Positions 2,607 through 63,371 of a DNA stretch of 64,000 bases are shown here, in pieces. Under the pieces are notes generated by a model, which saw only the letters and a list, made by a program, of their open reading frames with translations, was not told the origin of the DNA and did not search any database. The stretch is from Thermoanaerobaculia bacterium (GTDB lineage: Bacteria; Acidobacteriota; Thermoanaerobaculia; UBA5066). The translations under genes and the position numbers were made by a program. The stretch is taken from positions 1 to 64,000 of the forward strand of contig JAJVIN010000024.1 in NCBI GenBank assembly GCA_022071945.1, written 5' to 3'. Position 1 is the stretch's first letter; the number at the start of each line of letters is the position of its first letter.

Positions 2607-3338
2607 TCAGTTCTCGAGAGCGGCCGGGGCGGATTCCAGCTCGACCCAGCCTCGCCGGAAGGCGAGCGACACCGCCTCGAGCTTCGAGTGGACCTCGAGC
2701 TTCTCCAGGATCCGGTGAATGTGGTTTCTCACCGTCGCCAGGCTGATGTCGAGCTTGTGGGCGATCTCCTTGTTCTGAAGACCCGCGGCCACCCATCTCA
2801 AGATCTCCCGCTCCCGATCCGTCAGCGGGGGGTCCTCGGGAAGGGGCGCCGAGAGCGGCGTCAGGCCCAGCAGCGTGTCGGGGGCACTCCGTGCCGAGTC
2901 GAGCTGCCTCAGAAGCGCCGCCATCCTCGTCCCGGCCTCGACCGGCTGCAGGAGATGGACGATGGTGTAGGTCTCGGGCCGATGCCCAGGGATCTGGACG
3001 ATAGTCACGTTCAGCTGCCGCGACATCCCGCTCGGATGCCCAACGGAGAACTCGTACCCGTTGACCGGCTCCCCTTCCCGCGTCGCCGACACCACCGAGC
3101 ACGCCTTGTAGCAGAACCGGTTTCCGTAAAGGTCGCGCCCGCCCACGACCACGTAGCACGGCTTGCCGAGCACCTTGTCGGCCCGCTGCCCGAGGAGCTC
3201 CTCGGCACCGCGGTTCCAGAACACGATGCGGTCGTCAGCATCCGTCGCAAACGCCGGAGGAGTCCCCGTCGAGAGGATGTCGAGAAGATCCGCCCTCACG
3301 GGCGTCTGGTCTCCCTTGGATCCTGACTTAGCCGCCAT
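2607..3338 (-). CDS. PAS-LuxR transcriptional regulator with Cys-containing PAS domain
   Basis: The 243-residue protein has a PAS domain at about residues 20-130 and a LuxR/FixJ-type HTH at 171-227 (LTDREREIL ... NKEIAHKLDISLATVRNH). It has no receiver domain, so it should sense directly through PAS. Three cysteines (61, 76, 80) frame a DLYGNRFC segment, a spacing that could bind a metal or iron-sulfur centre or respond to redox; this is inferred. The frame continues upstream, but the ATG at 3338 has GAGGG about seven bases before it and begins a plausible protein. The inverted repeat at 3422-3436 upstream may be its operator. Confidence 0.8.
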   Translation of the reverse strand: MAAKSGSKGDQTPVRADLLDILSTGTPPAFATDADDRIVFWNRGAEELLGQRADKVLGKPCYVVVGGRDLYGNRFCYKACSVVSATREGEPVNGYEFSVGHPSGMSRQLNVTIVQIPGHRPETYTIVHLLQPVEAGTRMAALLRQLDSARSAPDTLLGLTPLSAPLPEDPPLTDREREILRWVAAGLQNKEIAHKLDISLATVRNHIHRILEKLEVHSKLEAVSLAFRRGWVELESAPAALEN

Positions 3339-4018: not shown

Positions 4019-5116
4019 CTACGGCCGTTTCGGATTCGGCCCAGGGGGCTTTGGGAGCTCCCCTCTCAGGATGTCCTCCGGCAGGATGGGAGGCAGCGCC
4101 ATTTCCCTGGAGAGCTCCTCTCCGGTCTTGCCCTTCGAGGGCGCGGGAGGGGGGCTTTGCCCGCCGATTCCGGCGCCGGGACCCAGGAGAGTGCGGATCG
4201 TCTGGGTCTTCTTTCCCGGGGGAAGGACGATCAGGCGGGCCGAAGCGGCGACGCGCTCGAGGGTCTCGAGATGGAGACGCGTCAGGGCTGCGGACCGTTC
4301 CTCCGCAACCTCCCGGGCGAGGGCGCGGAACTTCTCGACGGCCCCCCTGGCTGTCTCCACCTGCTCTCTCTGCCAGCTCCCGGCCTCGCGTCTGAGTCGG
4401 TCGGCCTCGGCGCGGGCCAGGGCGAGCGCCTCGGAACGCTTTCCGTCGGCTTCACTGACCCGTCTTTCTCTCTCCGCCGAAGCCGAGCTGACGGCGGTAA
4501 AGGCGTCCTCGGCGCCGACCGGAGGGCCCGCCATGACGATCGCGACGCTGGCGAGCCTCACTCCGAGGCCCAGCCGGTCACACTCTTTCTGAAGGTCGAG
4601 GCGAACGTCTTCCTGCAGGCGGACCTTGCCGTCCGTCAGAATGGACTCGACACTCTCGGTGGCCGTCCTGCGTGTCAAGATCGAAAAGGCGGCGCTTCGG
4701 AGAACGGCCTCGGCGTCGAGGTACCGCATCCTCAGCGCGATCGGATCCTCGGCCCTGTATTGAATCTGGGCTCGCACCGAAACGAGATTTTCGTCGCCCG
4801 TGATCAGTTCGAGGGGGCTGCCGTCCCGGCGGGAGAGTTCGAGCTTCCTCTCGTTGCCCACGCCAACCTTCTCGAGGGACTCGACGAGAGGCACGACGTA
4901 CAGGGCTCCGGGAGGCACGGGCTCGGGCCGGACCCTTCCGAATCTGAGGAGGAGGCCCGCCTCGCCGTTCCTCACGATGCGAAACCCGGTCGCCAGCGAG
5001 CCCAACAGGACCGCCCCCAGGGCCGCGAGAAGGGCGGACGTCCTCCGCCCGTAAAGCCAGCGTGTGAAGCGCCAGACGGCCTCGACGTGCGACGGGATCC
5101 CGGAGGGATCGCTCAT
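4019..5116 (-). CDS. hflK: HflK-like SPFH/band-7 membrane protein
   Basis: The 365-residue product has one N-terminal membrane segment (about residues 26-46, ALLAALGAVLLGSLATGF) after a short cytoplasmic start, then an SPFH domain (NGEAGLLLRFGRV, about 50-215), a charged Ala/Arg/Glu coiled coil and a Pro-rich tail. HflK and HflC form a periplasmic cage around FtsH in the known system. Here the order is reversed, with the HflC-like gene first, and no ftsH is nearby. The start ATG overlaps the stop of the upstream HflC-like gene (ATGA), so translation is coupled. The assignment to HflK rather than another SPFH family is by general layout. Confidence 0.72.
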   Translation of the reverse strand: MSDPSGIPSHVEAVWRFTRWLYGRRTSALLAALGAVLLGSLATGFRIVRNGEAGLLLRFGRVRPEPVPPGALYVVPLVESLEKVGVGNERKLELSRRDGSPLELITGDENLVSVRAQIQYRAEDPIALRMRYLDAEAVLRSAAFSILTRRTATESVESILTDGKVRLQEDVRLDLQKECDRLGLGVRLASVAIVMAGPPVGAEDAFTAVSSASAERERRVSEADGKRSEALALARAEADRLRREAGSWQREQVETARGAVEKFRALAREVAEERSAALTRLHLETLERVAASARLIVLPPGKKTQTIRTLLGPGAGIGGQSPPPAPSKGKTGEELSREMALPPILPEDILRGELPKPPGPNPKRP

Positions 5117-6006
5117 CTCTGGGGGGCCTCGGCACCCGGGCCGCGCGTCAGGAGCTTCATGACCGGCCCGTCCGAATCGAGAAAGACGGTCGTGCCCGGG
5201 CCCGCCATCTTCTCGTAGGCATGGAGAGTCCTGATGAACTCGTAGAGCTTCGGGTCGAGCCGGTACGCCTGCGCGTACAGCCGGGCGGCATCCGCATCTC
5301 CCTTTCCACGGCTGATCTCCGCGTCGCGCGCCGCCTCGGCGAGCAGAAGCCGCTTGGCCTGCTCGGCCTCGGCCTCGATCTTCTGCGCCGCCTCCTCCCC
5401 TTCCGAGCGCAGGCGCCGGGCGATCCGGTCCCTCTCGGCCCGCATCCGCGAAACGATCGCCTCCCGGTTCTGATAGGGGAAGTGGACCTGCGTGATCCAG
5501 GCTGTTTCGACCCGGATCCCGAAGCCGAGGGCCGCCTCCTGGACACGCTGTCTGACCTCCTCCGACAGCTCGGGCAGCTTCACCTTTCCCGGTTCGGCAG
5601 AGAAAAAAGACTCCGAGGGAGAGCGGCCGGCGATCGCTCCGAGCGCGGCGATCGACAGGTCGGTGAGGCGGGATTCCGCCCCGGCCGTGTCTCTGACGCG
5701 CTGCAAGAAGAGCTCGGGATCCTCGACGCGGTAGACGGCCGCCAGGTCGAGCAGGAGGTTCTTCTTGTCCACGGTCAGGAACTCCGTCGGGGGTATACGG
5801 AGCAGGAGCTTCCTGCGGTCGATTCGAAAGACGGATCCGATGGGCCGCGGCGCGATCAGGTTCAGGCCCGGCCCCATCGGCCCTCCCGAGATGCGCCCGA
5901 AGCGCACGGGAAGTGCCACTTCCGTCTCGTCCACGACGACGAGGGACGACAGGGTCAGGGCCGACACGGCCACGACCGCGACGATCCCGATGATCTTCTT
6001 CTTCAT
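5113..6006 (-). CDS. hflC: HflC-like SPFH protein
   Basis: The 297-residue protein has an N-terminal signal anchor (MKKKIIGIVAVVAVSALTL) and an SPFH domain starting VVVDETEVALPVRFGRI. It then carries the HflC-style helical region EAAQKIEAEAEQAKRLLLAEAARDAEISRGKGDADAARLYAQAY (in part) and ends with YEFIRTLHAYEKM ... VFLDSDGPVMKLL. The GDADAARIYAxAY and FYxFxRSLxAY patterns are typical of HflC. It overlaps both neighbours by four bases (ATGA). In the family it helps control the AAA protease FtsH, but here it may partner with the upstream permease fusion instead. Confidence 0.8.
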   Translation of the reverse strand: MKKKIIGIVAVVAVSALTLSSLVVVDETEVALPVRFGRISGGPMGPGLNLIAPRPIGSVFRIDRRKLLLRIPPTEFLTVDKKNLLLDLAAVYRVEDPELFLQRVRDTAGAESRLTDLSIAALGAIAGRSPSESFFSAEPGKVKLPELSEEVRQRVQEAALGFGIRVETAWITQVHFPYQNREAIVSRMRAERDRIARRLRSEGEEAAQKIEAEAEQAKRLLLAEAARDAEISRGKGDADAARLYAQAYRLDPKLYEFIRTLHAYEKMAGPGTTVFLDSDGPVMKLLTRGPGAEAPQR

Positions 6007-8300
6007 TTCTCGCTCCCGGCCGCCTTCTCTGCTGGAGAGGGCGAAACGCTGGGCAGCCCGCCCTGGATGACATCGTGGCTCACGTAGGACGGCGCGATGA
6101 TCACCGGCCGGCCGCTGACGGCCGCTCCGATGGCGTCCCAGAAGAGCCGCGTCCTCACTTCCCCGGGAGCCCCCCTCATTCCCTCCGCCCGGGCCGCAAA
6201 CGAATGGAAGGCCCCCTCGGCCGCCAGCCGTTTCTCACCGGCTTCCGCCCGGGCGCGAGAGATCCTCATGGCCGCGTCCCCACGAGCTCTTGGCAAGGAC
6301 GACTCGGCGAGTCCCCGGGCCTCGTATTTTCGCCGTTCGCGGTCCTCGGACGCACTCCCGACATCCCTGAAGGCCGTCACGGCTCCCTGCGGCGGGTGCA
6401 GGTCGAGAAGGTTGAACGAGACGGCCTCGAGCGGCAGTCCAGCCGCAAGGAGCGCCCTGTTCAGCTCCCGGACCGCCTCCTTCTCCAGCTCTCCCCGGCC
6501 GTCGCTCAAAACGGCGTCGATCGGCCGGCCGCCGAAGAGCCCCTTCAGAACCGCCAACGCGAGCGGCCGGGCGGGCTCCACGCCATCCCGCACCTCGAAG
6601 GAGTACCGGAACGGATCGGAAATTCTCAGGTGCACGGTGCACTTCGCCTCTATCAGATTCTGGTCTCCGCTCACGAAGGACGATTCCTCTGGCATGTCGC
6701 CGGGCGTCGTATAGATGGCGTGCCAGGCGTTGCCCGCGTAGATCCAGTCTTCCGACAGAGGGTCGGGAATCCCTGCCGCCCGGTACCCGAGGTCGAGGCG
6801 CAAGAGGGTGTGTGCCGGGACGATCACGGTGCTTCCCAGGGGTGTGGGTAACCGCCAGTGGATCCCCTGTTCCATCCGTGCGGGCGACGCCTTTCCGAGC
6901 GTCTTGGCAAACCCGGTGGATCCCGGCGGGACGACCGTGAAACCAAAGCCGGCCCACACGAGAACGGTCAGGCCGGCGCACAGCAAGGCGAAGCGGCGCG
7001 CCGGCAGTGACGCCAGGGCATCCAGCCCCCGGTCGAGCCCCCTGAGAACGGCCCGGGGAACGACCCCGCGAAAGGCCGAAACCACCTGCTCCCCCCCTTC
7101 CCTTAACCCGACCCGGGCGAGCGAAAGGAAAAAGGGCCCGCCAAAAACGAGGGCGGCGGCCAGCTCCCACGTCCGGACACCCCGTTCCAGGAAGGGGAGC
7201 TCGCTTCCGCCTCCGGGGAAGATCGACCGGCCAAAGACCTGGAGCAATGTCCCCATGAAGAAGGAAACGGACAGGGCCGCCAGCACCACGGCGAAGAGGA
7301 ACTTCTTCCCGAAGGCTCGGCGAAACAGGAGCACAGCCGGAGCGCTCGTGACCGGACCCGTCAGGAAGAGAACGAGAACGGCGGCGGGCGCCATGCCCTT
7401 TGCCATCAGGACGGCTCCGAGCGGCGTGGACGCCGACGCGCAGAGGTAAAGAGGCGCGATCAGGACGGCGAGGAGCATCTGCCCGGGAACACCTCCCGGG
7501 ATGAAGCGGGTGAAATCGGAAGGCAATGCGGCCGCGAGAAAGCCCGAGAGGAGGAGTCCCGCCAGGAGGGGCCACGAAATCTCGTCGAGGACCTCGCGGA
7601 ACCCGAAGCGCCAGACTTCCCCCGCGAGACGTCTCGCGTTCAAGACCGCTCCTTCCGGGCGGGCTGCCCCGCCAGCCTGACCTTCACCGCCCGCCGGATC
7701 GGAAAGGGCCGCCGTGTCGGCGGAACCTGCCTGGTCTCGCCGCAAGAGGTGTCTCAGGGCTGCCTTGAGCTTCGCCCAGAAGACCGGGTCGGGCCGGTCC
7801 GTGAGCGTCTCCGTGTCGTGGCACCCATCCTGGCAAGAGGGTGTCGCCGCCTCCTCCACGGACTCTGGCTTTCCCCACGCCTCCGAGGCGAGGACGAAGA
7901 GCCCGGCCACGACGCCGGAAACGAGGCTCGCGAGGACGCGAAAGACGGCAAAGGCCGGACCGAAGAGCCCCGCCGTCAAGACCACGGTGTCCTCGCTGTT
8001 CTCCGGCGTCGCGACGGCAAAGGCGGCCGTCGCCTCCGGCGAGGCCTTCCTCTTCCGCATCGCCACGGCAAGGGGCAGCACGCCGCACGAACAGACGGGC
8101 AGGAGCACGCCGAAGCCGATCCCGGACAGGATGGACCGGAGCCCTCGCGTCCCGAGATTCTTCCCGAACGGCCGGCCCCGCAAGGCGACGTGGACGATTC
8201 CGGCGATCAGAAAGCCGGACAGAAGATAAACGCTGCTCTTGACGAGGACTTCGAAGGTGAGGGCGAGGATTCTGACGAGGCCGCGAAAGATGACGTCCAT
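6003..8300 (-). CDS. Fusion of ArsP/SO_0444-type permease and HflK-like SPFH domain
   Basis: The 765-residue protein joins two families. Residues 1 to about 420 match the DUF318/ArsP_1 permease class (SO_0444 Cu/Zn and ArsP organoarsenical efflux): PVCSCGVLPLAVAMRKR with C70 and C72, AVATPENSEDT, and in the second half CASASTPLGAVLMAKG and LTGPVTSAP. A hydrophilic linker at about 165-240 carries SCQDGCH. A further membrane span at about 436-458 leads into an SPFH domain (VVPPGSTGFAKTLGK ... SGDQNLIEAKCTVHLRISDP) that runs to the end. Separate permeases are about 300-450 residues long, so this is a true in-frame fusion. It heads an operon with the HflC- and HflK-like genes. Substrate is inferred to be a metal or metalloid. 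Confidence 0.8.
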   Translation of the reverse strand: MDVIFRGLVRILALTFEVLVKSSVYLLSGFLIAGIVHVALRGRPFGKNLGTRGLRSILSGIGFGVLLPVCSCGVLPLAVAMRKRKASPEATAAFAVATPENSEDTVVLTAGLFGPAFAVFRVLASLVSGVVAGLFVLASEAWGKPESVEEAATPSCQDGCHDTETLTDRPDPVFWAKLKAALRHLLRRDQAGSADTAALSDPAGGEGQAGGAARPEGAVLNARRLAGEVWRFGFREVLDEISWPLLAGLLLSGFLAAALPSDFTRFIPGGVPGQMLLAVLIAPLYLCASASTPLGAVLMAKGMAPAAVLVLFLTGPVTSAPAVLLFRRAFGKKFLFAVVLAALSVSFFMGTLLQVFGRSIFPGGGSELPFLERGVRTWELAAALVFGGPFFLSLARVGLREGGEQVVSAFRGVVPRAVLRGLDRGLDALASLPARRFALLCAGLTVLVWAGFGFTVVPPGSTGFAKTLGKASPARMEQGIHWRLPTPLGSTVIVPAHTLLRLDLGYRAAGIPDPLSEDWIYAGNAWHAIYTTPGDMPEESSFVSGDQNLIEAKCTVHLRISDPFRYSFEVRDGVEPARPLALAVLKGLFGGRPIDAVLSDGRGELEKEAVRELNRALLAAGLPLEAVSFNLLDLHPPQGAVTAFRDVGSASEDRERRKYEARGLAESSLPRARGDAAMRISRARAEAGEKRLAAEGAFHSFAARAEGMRGAPGEVRTRLFWDAIGAAVSGRPVIIAPSYVSHDVIQGGLPSVSPSPAEKAAGSEK

Positions 8301-8814: not shown

Positions 8815-11112
<2,298 letters not shown>

Positions 11113-11114
11113 CC

Positions 11115-11312
11115 GTGCTGCAGCAGCTGGTCAGAGACACGGGCGGAAGCGGCTGGGCCATCGCCTCGATGCTCTTTTTCATCGGGGTCTGGTGCGTCAT
11201 CGTCCTCCGCGTCTGGAAGGCCAGTCCGAAAGAGATGACCGAGCATGCCCGCCTTCCGCTCTCGGACAACGGCAATGGTCAATCCCCGGCGGAAACGGAT
11301 CCGCGGGCCTGA
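11115..11312 (+). CDS. ccoQ: CcoQ-like small membrane subunit
   Basis: The 65-residue protein has one membrane helix (about residues 10-30, GWAIASMLFFIGVWCVIVLRVW) followed by a short polar tail, the CcoQ/FixQ layout. The GTG start at 11115 is chosen because GAGGT lies just upstream and it follows the ccoNO stop by two bases. CcoQ stabilises the cbb3 complex in known systems. Position between ccoNO and ccoP supports the call more than sequence does. Confidence 0.75.
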   Translation: MLQQLVRDTGGSGWAIASMLFFIGVWCVIVLRVWKASPKEMTEHARLPLSDNGNGQSPAETDPRA

Positions 11313-11324
11313 GGAGAGGGAACC

Positions 11325-11909
11325 ATGGCAGAGTACGAAGACAAGATCCTCCACGACATCGACGGCATCAAGGAGTACGACAATCCCCTCCCGGGCTGGC
11401 TGATGGCGATCTGGTGGGGGAGCCTCCTGTTCTCCGCCCTCTACATCGCTTTCTATGCCCTGAGCTTCGGCGAGCCCACCATGGAGGCGGAGTACCGGAG
11501 CGCCGCCGAGAAGGACCTCGCGGCCCTCCAGGCGCATTTCGACGCCCACCCGATCGTGGCGCCGACACCGGCCGAGCTCCTCTCGGGAGCCAAGAACCCC
11601 GAGGTTCTTTCCGCCGGCGCCGCACGCTTCGCCAAGACCTGTGCGTCGTGCCACGGCCAGCAGGCACAGGGCCTGATCGGGCCAAACCTCACCGACGAAC
11701 GCTGGATTCACGGCGGAAGCGTCGAGCAGATCTTCCACTCGATCGTGAAGGGCTGGCCCGCGAAGGGAATGCCTCCGTGGGGCCGCGCGATTCCGCAGAA
11801 GGAGATCGCGGCTCTCGTCTCCTACGTGAGGAGCCTGCAAGGCACGAATCCGCCGAATGCCAAGCCCGCCGAGGGCGAACCCTTCAAGGCCGAGGCCCTC
11901 CCGGAGTAA
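11325..11909 (+). CDS. ccoP: CcoP, monohaem form of the cbb3 cytochrome subunit
   Basis: The 194-residue protein starts with the typical CcoP N-terminus (DGIKEYDNPLPGWLMAIWWGSLLFSALYIAFY), which anchors it in the membrane. It has a single haem c site, CASCH, at about residues 106-110 with a downstream WPAKGMPPWG methionine-ligand region. Most CcoP proteins are near 300 residues with two haem sites, so this one lacks a haem domain. It would accept electrons from the soluble carrier or from the Act complex. A ribosome binding site (GAGGAGAGGG) lies before the ATG. Confidence 0.9.
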   Translation: MAEYEDKILHDIDGIKEYDNPLPGWLMAIWWGSLLFSALYIAFYALSFGEPTMEAEYRSAAEKDLAALQAHFDAHPIVAPTPAELLSGAKNPEVLSAGAARFAKTCASCHGQQAQGLIGPNLTDERWIHGGSVEQIFHSIVKGWPAKGMPPWGRAIPQKEIAALVSYVRSLQGTNPPNAKPAEGEPFKAEALPE

Positions 11910-11939
11910 CAGCCCTTGCAAGACGGACCCGTCCAGACT

Positions 11940-13388
11940 ATGGAGGCGCAAAGGAACGAGGTTCCCCGAGGTCCTTCGCGCCTCTTCGATGTGGCTCCCG
12001 AGGAGGAGCTCCTCTACAGCATCACGGCGGAGGGAAAGCGGAAGTTCATCCATCCCGTCGTCCACAAGGGCAGGTACTGGAAGATCCGCCGCTCGATGGC
12101 CTATGCCCTCATGGTGCTGTTTTTCGGGTTGCCCTGGATTCCCGTGGGCGGTCACCCGGCGGTCTTCCTCGACCTGGCTTCCCGGCAATTCCACATCCTC
12201 GGCGGCACCTTCCACCCGACCGACAACCTCCTCTTGGCCGCCCTGGGCGTCTCGATCATCATCACGGTCTTTTTCGTCGGCTCGACCTTCGGACGCATGT
12301 GGTGCGGGTACGCCTGCCCCCAGACCGTCTATCTCGAGTTCATGTTCCGGCCCATCGAGATCTGGCTGGAGGGCACGCCCGTCGCGCAGCGAAAGCTGAA
12401 CGCGGCCCCCTGGAGTGCAAAGAAGGCGGCCGTCAAGTCCGCCAAGTGGGCCCTCTGGACTGTTCTCGCGCTCCTGATGGCGGTCACATTCGTTTCCTAC
12501 TTCGTCAGCTGGAGCGCCCTTCTGGGCGACGTCCTGCCGAATCCCGCCGCGAACAAGGCCGTCGTCGGCGTTGCCCTGTTCTTGACCGGGATGATCCTCT
12601 TCGACTTCGGGTGGTTCCGCGATCAGATGTGCACGGTGGCCTGCCCCTACGGGCGGCTCCAGAACGTCATGGCCGACCCCGACACGATCCTCGTGGCCTA
12701 TGACCAGCCCAGAGGCGACCCCAAGACGAAGCTGAAGGACCGGATCGAGGGAGGCACGTACGGCGACTGCATCGACTGCAAGAGCTGCGTCAGCGCTTGC
12801 CCGACCGGCACCGACATCCGCCGGGGGCTTCAGCCCGAATGCATCGGATCGGCGCAGTGCATCGACGCCTGTGACGTCGTGATGGAACGGACCGGCAAGC
12901 CGCCGGGCCTCATCCGGTACACGTCCGAGCGGGAGCAGGCAGGGGGAACTCGCAGGATCTGGCGGCCGCGCGTCATCATCTACCTCGTCCTTCTGACAGT
13001 CGCCTGGGGAACGCTCGCCGCCCTGGTCATCGGCAGGGCCGAGGCCCTCGTGGAGATCATCCGGGGGGGACGCGAGCCGTACCGGATTCTCCCGACCGGC
13101 GAGGTGGCCAACCAGCAGCGGCTCCGGATCACGAACCAGCTGCCCCAGACCCAGAGCTTCACCATTCAAGTCCTCTCGCCTGCCGGGGCGAAGCTCGTCC
13201 TGAGCGAGTCGCCCGTGGTCGTTTCCCCGGCCGAGCTCTCGGCGATCAACGCGGTGACGACCGTCCCGCCAAGCGTGTTTTCCGACGGCCAGGCGGAAGT
13301 GCGGTATCTCGTCACCTCCGACCGCGGATTCAAGAAAGAAGTGAAGTTCCTGCTTCTCGGTCCTTACACGGACTCGGAGGGGCCGTGA
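11940..13388 (+). CDS. ccoG: CcoG/RdxA ferredoxin-like cbb3 maturation protein
   Basis: CcoG is a polyferredoxin needed for cbb3 biogenesis and shown to reduce Cu(II) in known systems. The 482-residue product shows EGKRKFIHP near the N-terminus, several membrane spans, CGYACPQTVYLEFMFRPIEIW, CTVACPYGRLQ and the ferredoxin motif CIDCKSCVSACPTGTDIR followed by CIGSAQCIDACD. A C-terminal periplasmic Ig-like domain (from about residue 380) is also typical. The frame starts at a TTG at 11916; the ATG at 11940 is used here, but the TTG has GGAG about ten bases upstream and cannot be excluded. Confidence 0.92.
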   Translation: MEAQRNEVPRGPSRLFDVAPEEELLYSITAEGKRKFIHPVVHKGRYWKIRRSMAYALMVLFFGLPWIPVGGHPAVFLDLASRQFHILGGTFHPTDNLLLAALGVSIIITVFFVGSTFGRMWCGYACPQTVYLEFMFRPIEIWLEGTPVAQRKLNAAPWSAKKAAVKSAKWALWTVLALLMAVTFVSYFVSWSALLGDVLPNPAANKAVVGVALFLTGMILFDFGWFRDQMCTVACPYGRLQNVMADPDTILVAYDQPRGDPKTKLKDRIEGGTYGDCIDCKSCVSACPTGTDIRRGLQPECIGSAQCIDACDVVMERTGKPPGLIRYTSEREQAGGTRRIWRPRVIIYLVLLTVAWGTLAALVIGRAEALVEIIRGGREPYRILPTGEVANQQRLRITNQLPQTQSFTIQVLSPAGAKLVLSESPVVVSPAELSAINAVTTVPPSVFSDGQAEVRYLVTSDRGFKKEVKFLLLGPYTDSEGP

Positions 13389-13921
13389 GAGTCCGGCAGT
13401 TCCTCTCGGAGTACCGCTGGCCCCTCTATCTGAGCGGGCTTCTCGGCATGGCGATCGCCGCTTACGGCGTCCTCATCTACGTGGCGACGCGGCCGAACTC
13501 TCCCCGTCCGATCCCCAACTACTACGAGTCGGCCCAGAAATGGGACGCCGACGAGGCCGTCGAGGCCGCGAGCCGGCAACTCGGCTGGACCGTCCGCTAC
13601 GAGATCCCGGCTGGAGTCCCCCACATCGCGGGGACCCCCCGGCCCGTCGACATCAGGGTGACCGACCGCGAAGGAAAGGGTGTTTCTTCCCTGAAGGGCC
13701 GCCTCTTCGCCCTCCGGCCGTCGGACCAGAGGCTGAACCAGACCGCGGAGCTCGTCGAACTCCCCCACGAGGCGGGGTGCTATCGCGCTCTCGTTCGCGT
13801 GGACGTGCCGGGAACCTGGGAATTCCGCGTGGATGCGACACGCGACTCCGCGCGGTTCGTCCACGCGGCACGGGTCCCCGTCGCTCCAGATACCCCGGCA
13901 GACGCGGGAGAAGGCAAGTGA
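13385..13921 (+). CDS. ccoH: FixH/CcoH family protein
   Basis: The 178-residue protein has one N-terminal membrane span (about residues 13-33, LYLSGLLGMAIAAYGVLIYVA) and a periplasmic beta-rich domain with VRYEIPAG, PVDIRVTDREGKGV and VPGTWEFRVDA, the FixH layout. It assists cbb3 assembly together with CcoI. The GTG start overlaps the ccoG stop (GTGA) and its own stop overlaps ccoI, so the three are translationally coupled. Confidence 0.82.
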   Translation: MRVRQFLSEYRWPLYLSGLLGMAIAAYGVLIYVATRPNSPRPIPNYYESAQKWDADEAVEAASRQLGWTVRYEIPAGVPHIAGTPRPVDIRVTDREGKGVSSLKGRLFALRPSDQRLNQTAELVELPHEAGCYRALVRVDVPGTWEFRVDATRDSARFVHAARVPVAPDTPADAGEGK

Positions 13922-16434
13922 ACCCGCGAGGCGAGCGCCCGATTCCCTCCGGAGCGGAGGCGGCGTGCGCCCACTGCGGGCTGGAAGTGCCCGAGAGGCT
14001 CGTCCGGCCGGATGAGGCCCGTCAATTCTGCTGCGCGGGATGCCGGCAGGTCTTCACCATCATCAACGAGTGGGGCTACGGCCAGTACTACCGCCTGGCA
14101 GATCAACAAGGGGCGAGGAATCAGCCCGCTCGCGTCACGGGCCGGACATTCGCGGACTTCGACGACCCGGCCGTGGCCTCGGAGACGAGCGAAGCCCTGA
14201 CGGCGGGCCGGTGCCGGACCCGCCTCTACCTCGAGGGCGTGCACTGCGCCGCCTGCGTGTGGCTCGTCGAAAAAATCCCCGAGGCGCTCCCCGGCGTCGA
14301 TTCCGTGAGGCTCAATCTCGGAAACGGCGTGGCCGAGGTCACATGGGAGCCGGGCCGGGTCGCCCTCTCCGTGATAGGGCGGACTCTCGACAGCCTCGGC
14401 TACACGCCTCACGTTCACCGCACGGGGAAGATCCAGGAAGTCCGCCGCAAGGAAGACCGAGCGGCCCTCGTCAAGCTGGGCGTCGCCGGTGCCTGTGCCA
14501 TGAACCTGATGTTCCTGCACGGCGCCATCTACGCCGGCGAGTACTCGGGCATGGCCACCCCTTTCGAGACGTTCTTCCGCTGGGTCTCCCTCGGGGTCTC
14601 CCTGCCGGTCATGCTCTTTTCGGCCCGCCCCTTCTTCACGTCGGCCGTGGCGGGCCTCCGATCGCGGATGGTGCACATCGACCTCCCGATCGCCCTCGGG
14701 ATCGCAACCGGATTCCTCTACAGCGCCTGGAACACGGTCGCGGGGAAGGGCCCCCTGTACTTCGATTCGCTCGCGATGCTGGTCGCCGCGCTTCTGGGCG
14801 CGCGTCAGCTTCAGCGGGCGGCCCAGAGAGCCGCCCTGGAGCGCGCGGATGGTCTGCGAGGCGCTGCCTTCATCGAGTTCGCCCGCAAGCTGACGGGCCC
14901 CTCCCTGGACTCGCCCGCCATCGAGTGGAACGTCAACGGTCTTGCTCCCGGTGATCGCGTCGAGGTCCTGTCTGGCGACCTCGTTCCCGTCGATGGGACC
15001 GTCCTTTCTGGACGATCCACGCTCGACAACGCCGTCCTGACAGGAGAATCGGTCCCCGTCGCGGTTCGGGAAGGCGACTCTGTCAGCGCGGGAGCAACGA
15101 ATCTCGGGGCCCGGCTCGTCGTCAGCGTGGAGGCATCGGGGAAGAAGACCCGAGTGGGAGCTCTTCTCGCCCTCGTCGAGGAGGCGCTCTCGCGGCGTCC
15201 GGCCGTCCTCGAGCTCACCGACACCCTCGCGCGCCGCTTCGTGAAGGTCCTCCTGGCGGTTGCCGTCCTGACCGCCGTCATCTGGTTCCCCGCGGGACCA
15301 TCCGTCGCTCTTCACCGGGTGATCGCGCTTCTCGTCGTGGCCTGCCCGTGTGCCCTGGGGCTTTCCGTTCCGCTCGCCGTCTCGGTGACGCTTCTGAGGG
15401 CCGCTCGCGCCGGGATCTTCGTGAAGAACCCCGACGCCTTGCAGAAGCTCCGGACCGTGTCGACCGTGCTCCTCGACAAGACGGGCACATTGACGGAGGG
15501 CCGGACGACGATCTCGCGGTGGGCCGGAAGCGACACCGCAAGGGAGCTCGCGTGCGCCCTGGAAGAGGAGTCCTCTCACACAGTCGCCGAGGGCTTCCGG
15601 ACCGCGTTCGGGCGAACTCTCCGCGCCGTCCGCCGGGTGGAGAACGTCAGGGAATCAGCGGGACAGGGGATCTCTGGCGACGTCGATGGCCGGGCCGTCG
15701 CCGTGGGCAACCTCGCGCACATGGCGGCGTCGGGCGCCTGTGTTCCCGAGGCGCTCGCGGTCCACGCGGACACCCTTCTGGGCGATGGACTGAGCCCTGT
15801 CTACGTGGCCGTCGATGGCCGCGTGGAGGGGGTGGGCGGAGCCGGCGATCCGATCCGCGCCGGGGCCCGCCAGACTGTGGCGCGGCTCCTGTCGCTGGGG
15901 ATCAGGGTCCGGATCATCTCCGGAGATCACGCGGCCGTCGTACGGAGTGTCGGGGCGAAGCTCGGGGTTCCGGAGGAGGACGCCCTGGGCGGACTGACTC
16001 CGGAGGCCAAGCGCGACCTCGTTCGCTCTCTCGTGGAGTCTCCCGGCCGCAAGGGCTCGGTCGTCATGGTGGGCGATGGCGTCAACGACGCCGCGGCGCT
16101 CGCCCTCGCCGACGTGGGCGTCGCGGTCCACGGCGGGACGGGAGCCTCGATCGCCGCCGCAGACGTGGTCCTGACGCGAGAGGGTGTCACTCCCCTGCTC
16201 GAGGTCCTCAAGGGCGCGCGGCGATTCCACGGCCTGATCCGGCGAAACCTGGTTTTCTCCGTTCTCTACAACGCCACGGGAGCGACTCTCGCGGTCCTCG
16301 GCGTCATGGGCCCCCTCCTGGCGGCGATCCTGATGCCGGCCTCATCGCTGACCGTCATCCTCTCTTCAGCACTCGCCCGGACCTTCGCGGGAGACGAAAA
16401 GCGGGCCTCTTTCGAAAGAGAGGCAGGAGTCTAG
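13918..16434 (+). CDS. ccoI: CcoI-type copper-exporting P1B ATPase
   Basis: The 838-residue pump carries an N-terminal metal-binding segment (CAHC at 17-20, FCCAGC at about 38-42) of the kind found in CcoI/FixI. It then has an HMA domain with CAAC at about 109-112, the transmembrane CPC motif near 476, phosphorylation motif DKTGTLTEG near 520 and GDGVNDAAAL in the hinge. CcoI exports Cu(I) for insertion into the CcoN active site rather than for detoxification. The GTG start at 13918 overlaps the ccoH stop; the longer upstream frame is a shadow of ccoH. Confidence 0.93.
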   Translation: MNPRGERPIPSGAEAACAHCGLEVPERLVRPDEARQFCCAGCRQVFTIINEWGYGQYYRLADQQGARNQPARVTGRTFADFDDPAVASETSEALTAGRCRTRLYLEGVHCAACVWLVEKIPEALPGVDSVRLNLGNGVAEVTWEPGRVALSVIGRTLDSLGYTPHVHRTGKIQEVRRKEDRAALVKLGVAGACAMNLMFLHGAIYAGEYSGMATPFETFFRWVSLGVSLPVMLFSARPFFTSAVAGLRSRMVHIDLPIALGIATGFLYSAWNTVAGKGPLYFDSLAMLVAALLGARQLQRAAQRAALERADGLRGAAFIEFARKLTGPSLDSPAIEWNVNGLAPGDRVEVLSGDLVPVDGTVLSGRSTLDNAVLTGESVPVAVREGDSVSAGATNLGARLVVSVEASGKKTRVGALLALVEEALSRRPAVLELTDTLARRFVKVLLAVAVLTAVIWFPAGPSVALHRVIALLVVACPCALGLSVPLAVSVTLLRAARAGIFVKNPDALQKLRTVSTVLLDKTGTLTEGRTTISRWAGSDTARELACALEEESSHTVAEGFRTAFGRTLRAVRRVENVRESAGQGISGDVDGRAVAVGNLAHMAASGACVPEALAVHADTLLGDGLSPVYVAVDGRVEGVGGAGDPIRAGARQTVARLLSLGIRVRIISGDHAAVVRSVGAKLGVPEEDALGGLTPEAKRDLVRSLVESPGRKGSVVMVGDGVNDAAALALADVGVAVHGGTGASIAAADVVLTREGVTPLLEVLKGARRFHGLIRRNLVFSVLYNATGATLAVLGVMGPLLAAILMPASSLTVILSSALARTFAGDEKRASFEREAGV

Positions 16435-16704
16435 ATGGAGACGGTCTTCGTCCTCCTGCCCCTGGCCCTCCTGATCGCCGGGATCGCGCTCGCGCTCTTC
16501 ATCTGGGCGGTGAGGTCCGGGCAGTTCGACGACCTGGAAACCCCGGCCGTCCGGATCCTCTTCGACGACGAGGCGCCTCCACGGAGAAACGGGAGCGCGC
16601 CCTCGGTACCCCCGCTCTCGCCAGGGGCGAAAGACAACGGCGAGAACTCCAAAACAGACCGGCAAACGACGGAAGCGGCATCGACAAGGAGGGACCCTGA
16701 ATGA
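16435..16704 (+). CDS. ccoS: CcoS, cbb3 maturation protein
   Basis: The 89-residue protein starts METVFVLLPLALLIAGIALALFIWAVRSGQFDDLETPAVRIL (in part), with the GQFDDLE motif that marks CcoS, needed for cofactor insertion into cbb3. It begins directly after the ccoI stop. The C-terminal 40 residues are a polar extension beyond the usual length of about 50-60. Its stop overlaps the actA start (ATGA), which links oxidase maturation and alternative complex III in one transcript. Confidence 0.9.
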   Translation: METVFVLLPLALLIAGIALALFIWAVRSGQFDDLETPAVRILFDDEAPPRRNGSAPSVPPLSPGAKDNGENSKTDRQTTEAASTRRDPE

Positions 16705-17291
16705 GCCGACCGAGTATGTCCGTCCGCATCCTCATCTTGGTGGGAGGCATGGCTGCGGCGGGCTCCCTGGCGTTCGCCCTGAGCAACGCGCGCAGGGGGT
16801 ACGAACCTCGACAGCCCATCCTGTTCAAGCACTCGCGAATGGCAGGCCCCCCTGTCATGGTGAAGAACGACAAGGGCGAGATGGTCAACGCGGGGGGGTT
16901 CAACATCCCCTGCCTCTACTGTCACACCATGCCGTACAAGGGCCGCCACTCGACAGTGCCGTCCACCGCCGTGTGCATGAACTGCCACAGTACCGTGGGC
17001 CTGAACAGGGAGTGGGTTCTCAAGATGAAGGACTACTGGGAGCGCGGAGAGCCGATCCCGTGGGTGAAGGTCCACGACCTGCCCGACTTCGTCTACTACG
17101 ACCACTCCGCCCACCTCAACGCCAAGAACGAGAAGGGCGAGCCCAAGGTAGCCTGCAAGGACTGCCACGGCGAGGTGGAGAAGATGGACGTCGTTCGCGT
17201 CCAGAACGCGTTCAACATGCAGTGGTGTCTGGACTGCCACCGGAAGAAGGAGATGGCGGCCCCGACCGACTGTGTGGCGTGCCACCGCTAG
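16701..17291 (+). CDS. actA: Alternative complex III pentahaem cytochrome ActA
   Basis: The 196-residue protein has an N-terminal membrane anchor (about residues 8-27) and five CxxCH sites (CLYCH, CMNCH, CKDCH, CLDCH, CVACH), with KHSRMAGP, YDHSAHL and FNMQWCLDCHRKKE segments typical of ActA. In alternative complex III it passes electrons from the iron-sulfur subunit toward ActE and the terminal oxidase. It overlaps ccoS by four bases and is followed by actB after 12 bases. Confidence 0.93.
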   Translation: MSRPSMSVRILILVGGMAAAGSLAFALSNARRGYEPRQPILFKHSRMAGPPVMVKNDKGEMVNAGGFNIPCLYCHTMPYKGRHSTVPSTAVCMNCHSTVGLNREWVLKMKDYWERGEPIPWVKVHDLPDFVYYDHSAHLNAKNEKGEPKVACKDCHGEVEKMDVVRVQNAFNMQWCLDCHRKKEMAAPTDCVACHR

Positions 17292-17303
17292 AGGAAGACG
17301 ACG

Positions 17304-20300
17304 ATGAAAGCGAACGACACCCTCACCCCGTTCGACCCTGATAGCCTCGACAGACGGGAGTTCTTGCGCCTGGGCGGGACACTGGCTGCCGCCGGAGCCC
17401 TCGCCAGCGCCGGCTGCCAGCCGCCCCAGGAAGCGACCGTCCCCTTCCACGACATGCCCGAGAGCCTGGTCGATGGAGTGGGCCGGGCCCGCTTCTTCAC
17501 GACCGTGCTGGACGGCGCTCCGGTCGTCGTCAAGACGCGCGAGGGCCGCCCCATCCTGGCGGCGCCCAACCGCGGGCTTTCGAGCGGCCGGGGGCTGACC
17601 CTGCGGCACCACGCCACCCTGATGGACCTCTATGATCCGGACCGGGCGAAGGGCCCCGTGTCGGTCCGTCGCGGAAAGGGCGCCCCCGTCGCGAGCAGCT
17701 GGGCCGCCATCGGGACCGAGGTCGTCTCCCGCCTGCAGAAAGAGAAGGGGCAGACCGTCCTCCTCACCGGCCCGGTCACGAGCCCCTCGCTTGCCGCCGC
17801 CATCGCGGGCCTCGCCGCCGCCGGCGTGAGGCACGTGGCCTACTCCCCCATCGAGCCGGGAGCTCCGGCCCTGGCCTGGCAAAAGGCCACGGGGTCCCCG
17901 CGCCGGCCCCGGCCCGCTCTCGCCAAGGCGGACCTGATCGTCGGCCTCGGCGCGGCGTTCCTCGACGGCAACCGGGATGGGCTCGACGAGGAGTTCGCCC
18001 TGAGGCGCGTGCCGGATCAGAAGGACGCGCCGATGAGCCGGTTCGTGCAGTTCGAGAGCCGGCTGAGCCTGACCGGCGCCAACGCCGACACGCGCATCCG
18101 CGTGCGCGACTCTCACCTTCCCCTGGTCGCGGCGGCCCTGGCCCACGAAGTGATCCTGGGGCAGAAGACGGGACCCCTCGCGTCAGTCGGCGACATCGCC
18201 ACCGCTCTCGCCGCCTTCTCCCCGCAAGAGGTCTCGAAGAAGACGGGCGTGAGCGCGGAGGTTCTCGGGACCGTGGCCAAACAGCTGGCCGCCGCCACCG
18301 GAAAGGCCGTTGTCCTGGCCGGCGGCCCCGCGAGCGAGTCCGCCGGCGGTCCGGCCCTGGAGATCGCGGTTCACCTGCTGAACCTCAGCCTCGACGCCTA
18401 CGCCTCGGGCCTTCTCGACCTTTCGGCAGGTGAGGATCTGACTCACGGGACCATCCAGGCCCTCGGCACCCTGACGGCCGAGATGCTCGCGGGAAAGGTC
18501 ACGACGCTCATCATCGGCGGGTCGAATCCCGTCTACGACGCGCCCGCCTCCTTGAAGTTCGCCGAGGCCCTCGCGAAGGTTCCGTTCGTCGTTTCATTGA
18601 ATGACCGGCTCGACGAGACGAGTCTTCTCGCCGACTACCTGGCACCAACGAGTCATCCCCTTGAGTGCTGGGGCGACGAAGCGCTGCCGAAAGGGCTCCT
18701 TTCGATCCAGCAGCCGTGCATCCAGCCGCTTCACGACACTCAGGGTCTCCTCGACGTCCTGGTTCTCTGGGGCGCTGCCGCGGGCGCCGGAGGAGCGCTC
18801 GAGGCGGCGCTCTCGGCGACGAAACCCGCTCCTGGCACCCCGGCAAACACACCGGCTCCCCACCCGAGCGCGGCCTGGCATTTCATTCGTGGTCAGTGGG
18901 CCGCGAGGCTCTCCCTGACACCGGGCACGCCCGAGTTCGATTCCGCCTGGAACGAGCTTCTCCGCTCCGGTTCGTGGCAGGGTCCCGTTCCGGCGGCGGC
19001 CCCAGTCGCAAAGCCTGGGGCCGAGGCTCTGGCCCTTCTGGCCAGTGCCGTCCCGGCGGCGGCGGAACTCGAACTGGAGCTCTACCCCCACACCGCGCTC
19101 CACGACGGCAAGTCCGCCAACAACGGCTGGCTGCAAGAGTTCCCGGACCCCATCACGCGGATCTCCTGGGGCGGCGCCGTCTCGATCGCCCCGAAGCGGT
19201 TCGACGAGATGGGGCTCTCGAATGGCGACATGGTCGAGCTCGACCTCGGCCACGCCAAGATCGTGGCTCCGGCTTACCGCCACGCGGGGATGCACAACGA
19301 CCAGGTGGCCCTGCCGTTCGGCCTCGGCCGGACGGCGTGCGGCGTCATCGGTTCGGGCATCGGCCAGAACGTCTTTCCACTCCGCCTTCTGGCGGACGGG
19401 CGCGCGCTGGCGGCCGGGTTGCCCGTCAAGATCCTGAAGACAGGCAAGAACGAGCCCCTTGCCTTCGCGCAGGGCTCGGACGTGATCGACCGCGACCGCC
19501 GGCCCCTGGTTCCGGCCACGACCCTCACGGCTTACGAGAAGGACCCCAAGTCCGGCACCGAGCAGCAGGAGGCCGGTCCCTCGATCTGGCCGGAGCACCC
19601 CTACAAGAACTCGAAGTGGTCGATGGCCATCGACCTTTCGAAGTGCAACGGCTGCGGGAAGTGCGTCATCGGCTGCCAGGCGGAGAACAACATTCCGGTG
19701 GTCGGCAGGCGGGGAATCCTCGACGGACGCGAGATGTCCTGGATCCGGATCGACCGCTACTACGACGCCCCGAAGAAGGACGGACGCTGGGGGGCCGAGG
19801 TCTGGGACGGCCCGCTGGCCGTGGTCGAGGAGCCCACCACGCTCTTCGAGCCGATGCTGTGCCAGCACTGCGACAATGCCCCGTGCGAGTCCGTCTGTCC
19901 GTTCGTGGCGACGATGCACAGCGAGGACGGCCTCAACCAGCAGATTTACAACCGCTGCGTCGGGACGCGGTACTGCGCCAACAACTGCCCGTTCAAGGTG
20001 CGCCGCTTCAACTTCTGGGAATACTCCTACGAGAAGAAGAGCGCTCTCTTCACATCCCTCGACTCGCGTTTCGAACAGTTCAACCAGCTCAACACGCGCA
20101 AGCCGATGCAGATGAAGAACAACCCCGAGGTCACGGTGCGGATGCGGGGAGTGATGGAAAAGTGCTCCTTCTGCGTCCAGCGGATCCGCGAGGCCCGGGC
20201 CCAGGCGACCCGGGACGGGAAGAAGAAGGACCACTTCCCCGACGGGGCGGTGATCCCGGCCTGCATGGAAGCCTGCCCGGCGGGCGCGATCACGTTCGGT

Positions 20301-20429
20301 GATCTCAACGCCCCGGGCGCGAAGGTCAAGGAGCTCAGTTCGCATCCCCGCGCCATGCGCCTCCTCGAGGCTCTCGGCGTCAAGCCCTCCATCTCTTACC
20401 TGACGAAGGTGCGCAATGACAAGGCATGA
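17304..20429 (+). CDS. actB: ActB, molybdopterin-like/iron-sulfur subunit of alternative complex III
   Basis: The 1041-residue protein begins with a twin-arginine signal (RREFLRLGG) and a following cysteine. The first ~740 residues resemble a molybdopterin oxidoreductase fold, which in ActB lacks the cofactor. The C-terminal third carries ferredoxin motifs: [11 protein letters not shown] from about 780, [31 protein letters not shown] and the CSFC ... [10 protein letters not shown] pair, consistent with four clusters. It relays electrons from the quinol site in ActC to ActA. It overlaps the start of actC by 14 bases. Confidence 0.92.
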
Positions 20430-21912
20430 GATGAGTCCCTACGCGACTGTCATGGACGACAGCCAGCTCACGGGCCAGCCGATCGTCCTCTCGGGCAAGG
20501 GACCTTTCGGCGGCGACGTCGAGATCCCGGAACCCCTCGTCACGGGCGGGAAGAAGTGGTCGGATGTCGACAGGGATATCTGCCTGCACACCGAGCAGTT
20601 CCCGACGAAGAGGTGGTGGATCTGTTTTGCCGCCGCCCTTTCCATGCTCGGAGTTCTGGTCTTCTCGCTGGCCTACCTCCTGTACGCCGGAATGGGGATC
20701 TGCGGTGTCAACGGTCCCGTCGGCTGGGGGTCGTTCATCATCAACTTCGTCTTCTGGATCGGCATCGGCCACGCCGGAACGCTGATCTCGGCGGTCCTCT
20801 TCCTCTTCCGCCAGCAGTGGCGGACGGGAATCAACCGGGCCGCGGAGGCCATGACGCTCTTCGCGGTGGCCTGCGCCGGCATCTTCCCCATCATCCACCT
20901 CGGCCGCGCCTGGTTCGCCTACTGGCTGGTCCCGTACCCCAACGCGCGAGGCCCGCTCTGGGTGAACTTCAACTCGCCGCTCGCCTGGGACATCTTCGCC
21001 ATCTCGACCTACGGGCTCGTCTCTCTCGCCTTCTGGTACGTCGGGCTCCTGCCCGACCTCGCCACGGTCCGTGACCGCGCGACCCACCCCTGGCGGAAGA
21101 AGCTCTACAACGTCCTGAGCTTCAACTGGACCGGGTCACACCGCGCCTGGCGGCACTACGAGTCGGCCTACATGATCCTGGCGGCCCTGGCGACTCCGCT
21201 CGTCTTCTCGGTCCACACGATCGTGTCGTTCGACTTCGCCACCTCGGTGATCCCGGGCTGGCATACGACGATCTTCCCGCCCTACTTCGTCATCGGGGCG
21301 ATCTTCTCCGGCTTCGCGATGGTCATCACCCTGATGAGCCTGATGCGCGGCGTCTTCAACCTCAAGAACTACATCACGCTGAACCACATGGAGGCGATGG
21401 CGAAGATCCTGATGCTGACGGGCATGCTCGTCGGATTCGCCTACTCCACCGAGTTCTTCATGGCGTGGTACTCGGGCAGCGAATGGGAAGGGTTCGTCTT
21501 CAAGAACCGCGCGTTCGGACCGTACTGGTGGGCGTACTTCATCATGTTCACCTGCAACGCGATCGTCCCGCAGATCTTCTGGTGGAAGAGCATGCGACGG
21601 AACACCGTGGTGCTCTTCGTGGTCTCGATCCTCGTCAACATCGGCATGTGGTTCGAGCGCTACGTGATCGTCGTGACCTCGCTGCACCGGGACTTCCTCC
21701 CCTCCTCGTGGGGCATGTATGCCCTCACGCGCTGGGACTACGCGATCCTGATCGGCTCGTTCGGTCTCTTCTTCACCCTGTTCCTGTTGTTCGTGCGCGT
21801 CCTGCCCGTCATCGCCATCTCCGAGGTGAAGGGCGTGATGGATCCGAAGGTCGCGCGAAGTGCTCCTTCGGACGCTGGCCCGGCCGCTGCCGCACGGCCC
21901 CAGGAGGTGTGA
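20416..21912 (+). CDS. actC: ActC, NrfD-like quinol-oxidising membrane subunit
   Basis: The 498-residue membrane protein of the NrfD/PsrC family has about ten membrane spans. Landmarks are [23 protein letters not shown] (in part), [27 protein letters not shown] and [20 protein letters not shown]. In the known complex it holds a quinol site. Two in-frame ATGs (20416 and 20431) have similar AAGG sites six bases upstream; the longer form is given. It overlaps actB and is followed by actD after three bases. Confidence 0.92.
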
Positions 21913-21915
21913 GCC

Positions 21916-22464
21916 ATGTTGAGTTCGACAATAGGCGTGCTCGGTCACTTCTGTGAACCGGCGGAGGCTCTCGCTGCAGCCGCGAAGGTCCGCGACGCGG
22001 GCTGGAAGCACTTCGACTTCCTCACTCCCTTCCCGATCCACGGGATGGAAGACGCCATGGGCCAGAAACGCTCGTGGATCCCCTGGGCGACGGGGGTCCT
22101 GGCGATCTGCGGGATCCTCTTCGCGCAGGGCCTTCAGAACTATGTGATGGTCTACGACTGGCCGATGAACTTCGGCGGCAAGCCACACGCGTCATGGCCG
22201 GCGTTCATCCCGATCACCTTCGAGGCGATGGTCTTCTGGGCGGCCCTCGGCAGCGCGGCCCTCGCCATCATCGCCGGCAAGAAGGACAACATTCCCCAGC
22301 CGCCTCCGATGCTCATCCAGACCGGAGCGACCGTCGATCGTTTCGTCTTGTGGATCTCGGCAACGGATCCCAACTGGGACGCGAAGAAGGCTGTGGCATT
22401 CGTGAAGTCGCTCGGTGCCAACGGCGTCCGGCTCGTCGACGCCGAGGGGGGGACCCATGAGTAG
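21916..22464 (+). CDS. actD: ActD, DUF3341 membrane subunit of alternative complex III
   Basis: The 182-residue protein starts with IGVLGHFCEPAEALAAAAKVRDAGW and DFLTPFPIHGMEDAMG, the DUF3341 signature, followed by two membrane spans and a short C-terminal domain. ActD anchors and stabilises the complex; no cofactor is expected. Its stop lies inside the start of actE (8-base overlap). Confidence 0.9.
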   Translation: MLSSTIGVLGHFCEPAEALAAAAKVRDAGWKHFDFLTPFPIHGMEDAMGQKRSWIPWATGVLAICGILFAQGLQNYVMVYDWPMNFGGKPHASWPAFIPITFEAMVFWAALGSAALAIIAGKKDNIPQPPPMLIQTGATVDRFVLWISATDPNWDAKKAVAFVKSLGANGVRLVDAEGGTHE

Positions 22465-23068
22465 AGTCGCCAAGAGCCTGGCCCTGGCGGCGGCGGTCCT
22501 GCTTCTGCCCGCGTGTGACCTGGGCCTGCCGGCCGGGCGCACGCCCCACCGCGAGTTCAACCGCCTGGACATGGCCGACCAGCCTCGGCTCAAACCGCAG
22601 CGCGCGGACATCTTCGGAAACCGGCCGACCGGGATGATGGAGCCCCCGCAGGGAACGGTCGCCATGACCGAACACCCGTATCCGTTCGCCCAGAACGAAG
22701 CCGACAAGGCGGGAGCGGCCCTCAAGAATCCTCTCCAGCCAACGCCCGAGGTCCTCGCGCACGGCAAGTTCATGTATGAGAACGTCTGTATCACCTGCCA
22801 CGGTCCGAAGGGAGCCGGCGATGGTCTCGTGACCCAGCTCTTCCCCAAGCCACCGAGCCTGATGACACAGAAGGTCAGGGACTGGCCCGACGGCCAGCTC
22901 TACCACCGGCCGATGCGCGGCCAGAACTCGATGCCCAGCCACGCCCGGCAGGTGGACGAGCGGGACATCTGGTCGATCATCCACTACATCCGCAAGATGC
23001 AGAGCGAGAACCCGGTTGCACCTCCGCCCGTCCTCCAGACTGCCGCGGCTCCAGGAGGGAAGTCATGA
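22457..23068 (+). CDS. actE: ActE, monohaem cytochrome c lipoprotein of alternative complex III
   Basis: The 203-residue protein has a lipoprotein signal (LALAAAVLLLPAC) and a single haem site CITCH at about residues 111-115, with MFDQPRLKP-like segment MADQPRLKPQ near the N-terminus and a RGQNSMPSH methionine-ligand region. It is probably the electron exit of the complex, toward CcoP or a soluble carrier. The start at 22457 was taken from the lipobox and family N-terminus; the frame is open 42 bases further upstream inside actD. Confidence 0.92.
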   Translation: MSRVAKSLALAAAVLLLPACDLGLPAGRTPHREFNRLDMADQPRLKPQRADIFGNRPTGMMEPPQGTVAMTEHPYPFAQNEADKAGAALKNPLQPTPEVLAHGKFMYENVCITCHGPKGAGDGLVTQLFPKPPSLMTQKVRDWPDGQLYHRPMRGQNSMPSHARQVDERDIWSIIHYIRKMQSENPVAPPPVLQTAAAPGGKS

Positions 23069-62786: not shown

Positions 62787-63371
62787 TCAGTCCTTCCAGG
62801 GGGCGGACCGCACCTCGGCCACCCCGTTCTCCATGCGCACGACGACGACCTTCTTTCTTGTTTCCAGAGCGGCGTCCTCCCCCGAGCGAGCCAGGAACTC
62901 GAGGTCCTGGTTCGCGAGGCGGACACGGATCTTCCCGACTTTCCCCGGCAGCAGAGGCAAGACCACCTCGCCCTCCGTCCCCAGGACGGACGAGGAGTCG
63001 ACCGGAGCCGCCGCGGACCCCTTCTGCAGCTTGCGAAAAACCCAGCACACCACCGTGCCGACTCCGAAGCCCATCGCCAGCGAGAGCGGGACGTGAAGGG
63101 CCGGCGAGGTTCCGAGCAGCGAGAGGGCCGTTCCCGTCATCCCGAACGCGCCCAGGGAGTACGTCCAGAATCGCAGCGACAGGACCTTGGGAAGCATCCC
63201 CTCGTCGTGGTGGGCGGCATCACCCGCGACATCTTCCGCCGTGGCACCCGCGACGCCCTCACCGCTCGCGCCGGCGTCGTGATCGCCCTCGCCGGAACCG
63301 GCTCCCGCGACGAGGGACGCCACGATGAAGACGGCCCCGAACGCCAGCGCCGCCAGGTAGATGGTGAGCAT
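62787..63371 (-). CDS. NfeD/YqiJ-like membrane protein
   Basis: The 194-residue protein has an N-terminal span, a Gly/Ala/Asp-rich loop with GDHDAGASGEG, two or three further spans (about 68-112) and a C-terminal OB-fold domain (SVLGTEGEVVLPLLPGKVGKIRVRL, in part). NfeD proteins are the usual partners of flotillins. It is first in the operon with two flotillins, supporting a scaffold function. Confidence 0.82.
   Translation of the reverse strand: MLTIYLAALAFGAVFIVASLVAGAGSGEGDHDAGASGEGVAGATAEDVAGDAAHHDEGMLPKVLSLRFWTYSLGAFGMTGTALSLLGTSPALHVPLSLAMGFGVGTVVCWVFRKLQKGSAAAPVDSSSVLGTEGEVVLPLLPGKVGKIRVRLANQDLEFLARSGEDAALETRKKVVVVRMENGVAEVRSAPWKD

Follow-up and report, generated by a model that had tools for sequence, protein, structure and literature searches.

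The best-known bacterial case of an SPFH assembly is the HflKC complex, which encloses FtsH (PMC13220708), and human stomatin domes enclose AQP1 and UT-B (PMC12407830). The function of SPFH domes is an open question, and the proposal that transporters are corralled by them is based on loosely bound cargo, for example AQP1 in the stomatin dome. Among metal permeases, SO_0444 is required for growth under Zn or Cu stress, and efflux of Zn and Cu by SO_0444 itself was proposed from mutant fitness (PMC3219624). The analyzed stretch of 64 kb of DNA from a Thermoanaerobaculia bacterium, referred to here as the window, contains three genes in which both protein types meet. The first gene (F) fuses a permease to an HflK-type SPFH domain, and the second (C) and third (K) encode HflC-like and HflK-like proteins (Table 1).

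The domain composition of the first gene was established with Pfam and NCBIfam profiles. The gene opens with ATG and runs through 765 codons without an internal stop. Its permease half matches ArsP_1 (PF03773) with 117 bits against a cut-off of 32.3, covering profile positions 4-293 of 294, carries the motifs CSCG, CASASTP and LTGPVTSAP and consists, as judged by eye, of two similar halves. Against the SO_0444 Cu/Zn efflux model NF033936 a score of 217.5 bits was obtained, under the equivalog cut-off of 300. The permease is a relative of SO_0444 and not an equivalog, and its substrate and direction of transport can therefore only be inferred. A hydrophobic span at residues 439-457 lies C-terminal to the permease; the corresponding AlphaFold2 (AF2) helix is the counterpart of the single N-terminal helix of HflK. 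Residues 456-664 match Band_7/SPFH (PF01145) with 41.0 bits (cut-off 23.6), and the SPFH half reaches 100.2 bits with the hflK model TIGR01933 (equivalog cut-off 159.4).

Genes 2 and 3 each share 4 nt (ATGA) with the preceding gene, and both match Band_7 (87.0 and 59.4 bits, same cut-off). Gene 2 passes the equivalog cut-off of the hflC model TIGR01932 by a narrow margin (134.8 versus 134.4 bits) and gene 3 remains under that of the hflK model with 137.8 bits; canonical proteins in relatives score higher, with about 260-290 bits for HflK and about 230-284 bits for HflC. As the SPFH half of gene 1 and gene 3 fall under the HflK cut-off and gene 2 is barely over that for HflC, these proteins are diverged paralogues. 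The gene order of fusion, HflC-like and HflK-like also differs from the two-gene hflK-hflC order. The initial annotation, made from the sequence alone, had claimed one 765-residue frame with ArsP-type permease motifs and an SPFH domain, an extra membrane span near residue 436 and a three-gene operon with translationally coupled HflC- and HflK-like genes. All of these claims held, with the correction that the proteins are diverged from canonical HflK and HflC.

Table 1. Features of the transporter-SPFH trio and its downstream neighbor in the window.
Feature	Position	Strand	Basis
Gene 1 (F), metal-permease / HflK-type SPFH fusion, 765 aa	6003..8300	(-)	ORF, Pfam, NCBIfam, tblastn, AF2
ArsP_1 / SO_0444-type permease half, residues 10-354	7239..8273	(-)	Pfam, NCBIfam, AF2 structure comparison
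Extra membrane helix linking permease to SPFH, residues 434-451	6948..7001	(-)	Hydrophobicity, AF2
SPFH domain, residues 454-635	6396..6941	(-)	Pfam, sequence and structure matches
Long C-terminal helix after SPFH, residues 638-708, as in HflK	6177..6389	(-)	AF2
Gene 2 (C), HflC-like partner, 297 aa, ATGA overlap with gene 1	5113..6006	(-)	Pfam, NCBIfam
Gene 3 (K), HflK-like partner, 365 aa, ATGA overlap with gene 2	4019..5116	(-)	Pfam, NCBIfam
PAS-LuxR regulator, downstream of trio, same strand	2607..3338	(-)	Also downstream of trio in G005, 69% identical

A promoter-like site could not be detected upstream of the window trio. The PAS-LuxR gene is placed outside the core and is a possible regulator of the trio. 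The region divergent from the trio (8815-24285, forward strand) was inspected by eye and contains cbb3 oxidase genes with fused CcoN-CcoO, CcoP, CcoG, FixH and a P-type ATPase, followed by an alternative complex III cluster. Three more SPFH-domain genes are present in the window at 55073-56515 (+), 60247-61506 (-) and 61503-62768 (-), the latter two overlapping and preceded upstream by a small membrane-protein gene (62787-63371). The window holds six of the genome's 12 SPFH matches.

The same permease-SPFH fusion was identified in ten other genomes of the phylum (G005, G003, G004, G009, G011, G013, G057, G071, G114 and G362), and with the fusion as query, HflC-like and HflK-like genes were found downstream in all ten. 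The fusion of G114 is located on a single 6-Mb contig. In the nearest relative, G005, one tblastn match without a stop spans residues 6-759 with 56% identity. At the junction, amino acid identity to G005 is 59% for residues 400-440 and 53% for residues 440-480, GC3 stays high from the permease into the SPFH half, and the coding pattern is kept.

To follow the trio beyond the phylum, GTDB genomes were scanned with an alignment of the HflC-like partner and the best 80 loci were kept, which do not amount to a census. The loci were annotated in six frames with custom profiles and twenty proteins were checked by Pfam. Eight loci are cut by a contig end. Of the 72 loci with an intact 5' end, 69 have a transporter-SPFH fusion as the gene upstream of HflC. 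The transporter position of these fusions is occupied by exporters of three unrelated families: CDF proteins (31 fusions), P1B-type ATPases (23) and ArsP permeases (15). C and K without a fusion beside them were observed in L073, L123 and L133. The trio genes are tightly spaced (median gaps of 3 and 1 nt), and the loci cover about twenty phylum-level names, with carriers that include an isolate, Bradyrhizobium erythrophlei, as well as sequences at closed or chromosome level (Acidobacteria Mor1, WWE3). Among 396 genomes sampled evenly from the window's phylum, 33, many of them from one genus, have a trio-type HflC, defined by a score of 264 bits or more (next scores 258 and below). Twelve further trio-type loci were opened; ten contain a CDF, permease or P-type ATPase fusion and one, in G310, has the canonical gene order. 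Plasmid relatives yielded canonical HflK only and no transporter fusion. The initial annotation had stated that a lack of similar fusions in relatives would refute it, and had proposed checking for a frameshift across residues 400-480 and how often the two domains occur fused or adjacent. The refutation failed, as fusions are conserved in the phylum and in many others, and the frame is intact by conservation to G005 and by GC3. The pattern is much wider than the initial annotation had recognized.

Several variants were observed. In L155 (G362:C11), the last of the twelve further loci, the first gene (L155:4805-6586) fuses SPFH to an unknown multi-span membrane domain of 286 residues without a Pfam match, and a separate P-type ATPase gene comes after this trio. 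A fourth conserved gene occurs at L056:9513-9998 and at the equivalent place in 21 further P-type ATPase trio loci; its membrane-anchored product of ~150-177 aa is mostly encoded within a few tens of nucleotides of the HflK-like gene and gave no Pfam match for the three members tested. It is likely to encode an accessory subunit that only the P-type ATPase version has. A related large protein adjoins short-type CDF trios, upstream or downstream (L082, L098, L101, L105, L110, L124 and L140); two tested members match PpiC-type rotamase, and the N-terminus of one of them is weakly SurA-like. In L104, L141 and L143, a further SPFH gene (HflC profile) lies upstream of the permease-SPFH fusion at a distance of one to two kb. 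An apparent fusion of 685 aa in L058 (G010) was rejected as an upstream extension by the gene caller and is actually a canonical HflK-HflC pair.

The ancestry of the subunits was examined by maximum likelihood. One clade (SH-aLRT 96) unites the third-gene HflK-like proteins and another (support 96) the permease-fused SPFH halves. The middle gene of the trio groups with HflC. Fused halves and third-gene proteins group apart from canonical HflK with a support of 66, which is not firm. That all fused halves share a single origin is not rejected by the tree test (p-AU 0.57). The CDF fusions are scattered and do not form one clade, and a single CDF clade is likewise not rejected. This scatter hints at the possibility that CDF came first and was then exchanged, which is not shown, and the order of swaps remains undecided.

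An AF2 monomer model of the window fusion (50-row alignment; mean pLDDT 81, pTM 0.58) consists of a helical permease, helix 434-451, the SPFH domain and helix 638-708, and at this pTM the relative placement of permease and SPFH halves is not fixed. Both Foldseek (E 3e-12) and VIA (Z 16.1, 8.6 A over 266 residues) match the SPFH half to E. coli HflK. The permease half has no solved structure that covers it by sequence, and its residues 3-363 match Pho90, NaDC1 and INDY with VIA Z of 10-12. These scores are lower than what would count as clear between helical bundles, and a DASS / ion-transporter superfamily fold is a possible lead only. The model of a CDF fusion from WWE3 displays six helices, a seventh and then SPFH, and matches both HflK (1e-20) and YiiP (rmsd 2.5 over 193 columns). 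Because the C-termini of CDF and P1B proteins are cytoplasmic and one more helix follows in the fusions, the SPFH domain is inferred to be periplasmic, as in HflK, and seven basic residues in the loop preceding helix 434-451 of the window fusion agree with this placement.

The transporter halves retain the motifs of their families. Full-length P-type ATPase halves contain CPC, DKTGT and TGE, with GDGxND in nearly all, CDF halves contain HxxxD in TM2 and TM5, and permease halves contain CSCG and CxSxSTP. This retention suggests that the transporters are active. Zinc-uptake genes (ZnuB/ZnuC-type ABC, ZnuA, ZrgA, ZIP) adjoin permease trios in four loci. Because of these neighbors and the need for SO_0444 in Zn or Cu stress, zinc is the first guess for the metal of gene 1, perhaps with copper; this assignment is probable at most, and the metal, the direction and efflux as such are all inferred. 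That these neighboring zinc genes serve uptake counts against the export reading.

The interpretation that we favor, with moderate confidence, is that the operon encodes an SPFH assembly of three components in the membrane, into which a metal exporter is built; no such complex was predicted or seen. C-terminally, the exporter of gene 1 would continue into an HflK subunit with its membrane helix, SPFH domain and long helix, and genes 2 and 3 would provide an HflC-like subunit and a transporter-free HflK-like subunit. As F and K are K-type and the middle gene is C-type, the simplest ring alternates C with either F or K. The three proteins would co-assemble into an HflKC-like periplasmic dome with a predicted C:F:K stoichiometry of about 2:1:1, e.g. 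12:6:6 in a 24-mer. The pump would be held at or inside the fenced membrane patch, and metal would be exported into or beside the dome. Co-assembly, the position of the pump inside the dome and any benefit of encapsulation are inferences, and it is possible that a bulky transporter on every fourth subunit does not fit a closed ring and faces outwards. A three-component transporter-SPFH assembly had already been suggested by the initial annotation and remains an inference. It is now better supported because unrelated transporter families share the SPFH subunit type and nearly always the same two partners, and because the modeled SPFH half matches HflK and a published SPFH dome encloses transporters. 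A bolder reading, for and against which the evidence appears balanced, is that bacteria repeatedly built metal efflux micro-compartments, in which CDF, P1B-ATPase and ArsP-type exporters were each fused to one conserved HflK-type subunit and a periplasmic dome with HflC- and HflK-like partners would enclose the pumps and receive or channel the exported metal. If true, this would constitute a general system of an SPFH cage with fixed, genetically encoded transporter cargo.

The main rival explanation, considered unlikely, is that the trio serves FtsH as an adaptor in the manner of HflKC and that the fused transporter is a permanent client or regulator with a role in quality control or proteolysis. 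The precedent of HflKC enclosing FtsH speaks for this explanation. In addition, the trio is the only HflK/HflC-like set in the window genome, G003 and G005, which are without canonical HflKC, and both G003 and G005 retain FtsH. However, FtsH was found in seven of eight genomes tested and the exception is the window's own, in which no M41 peptidase was detected; for an assembly that is 96% complete this is only suggestive, and an assembly gap or a real loss are both possible. Canonical HflKC also occurs alongside the trio in G057, G114, G071, G048 and G024 (G010 has the canonical pair only), and a general protease adaptor does not explain why, one unknown membrane domain apart, the passengers are only metal exporters. 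Less plausible still is a transporter half that has lost transport and instead acts as a metal sensor or as an anchor of the SPFH complex, altering its assembly. Transporter domains reused as sensors are known and fusion to a structural protein would permit such a role, but the transport motifs are retained in all three families. Equally remote is a function of the permease-type trio in metal supply instead of detoxification, such as zinc uptake or delivery of copper to the neighboring cbb3 oxidase. The adjacent zinc-uptake genes and the divergent oxidase and P-type ATPase genes of the window are in favor, but established biochemistry identifies the CDF and P1B-ATPase homologues at this position as exporters, and a link between trio and oxidase was rejected as G005 has the trio without the adjacent oxidase. 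An error that joined two genes in the draft assembly (69 contigs) is all but excluded by the ten other genomes, one represented by a single 6-Mb contig, and by the conservation of the junction as coding sequence.

Many bacteria, among them the source of the window, join a metal-export protein to an SPFH scaffold subunit and produce the fusion together with two partner scaffold proteins, which suggests pumps built into a membrane cage. The attachment of three unrelated exporter families to the same subunit type in distant phyla points to a direct gain from coupling pump and dome. The cargo of the trio is covalent, encoded and of known identity, which makes SPFH function testable by metal-tolerance assays and cryo-EM. 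One unrecognized system includes many proteins whose annotation reads HflK, HflC or efflux transporter. No published description of transporter-SPFH fusions or of the trio was found in the literature searched, which did not cover most subscription journals, and a review of SPFH evolution mentions no transporter.

Both halves of the fusion belong to known families, and the inferred assembly would be of the HflKC kind. As in E. coli HflK/HflC (PDB 7vhp, 7vhq, 7wi3, 9cz2), the trio combines subunits of HflC and HflK type, which have a membrane helix followed by an SPFH domain and a long C-terminal helix, as supported by sequence and fold matches. In contrast to the K-C gene pair of E. coli, the trio has three genes in the order F-C-K, one K-type subunit bears a whole transporter, the K proteins form their own clade and FtsH was not found in the host genome assembly. 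The permease half resembles SO_0444 / ArsP_1 (DUF318) permeases over its full length including the signature motifs, but stand-alone relatives (L059-L061) end after the permease, while gene 1 continues into SPFH. CDF zinc exporters such as YiiP and P1B-type metal ATPases supply the transporter half in most other trios with their motifs kept. The CDF half of the WWE3 fusion superposes on YiiP; its six helices lead directly into the SPFH membrane helix, where YiiP has a C-terminal domain, and it is possible, by inference, that the SPFH half takes over oligomerization from that domain. QmcA-YbbJ (SPFH-NfeD, PDB 8z5g) is likewise a bacterial SPFH protein with a dedicated membrane partner, which is an NfeD protein and not a transporter. 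The stomatin domes share with the proposed assembly an SPFH dome enclosing membrane transport proteins, but are built from separate polypeptides as cytoplasmic homo-oligomers around water and urea transporters, whereas the cargo of the trio is covalently attached and its substrate would be a metal.
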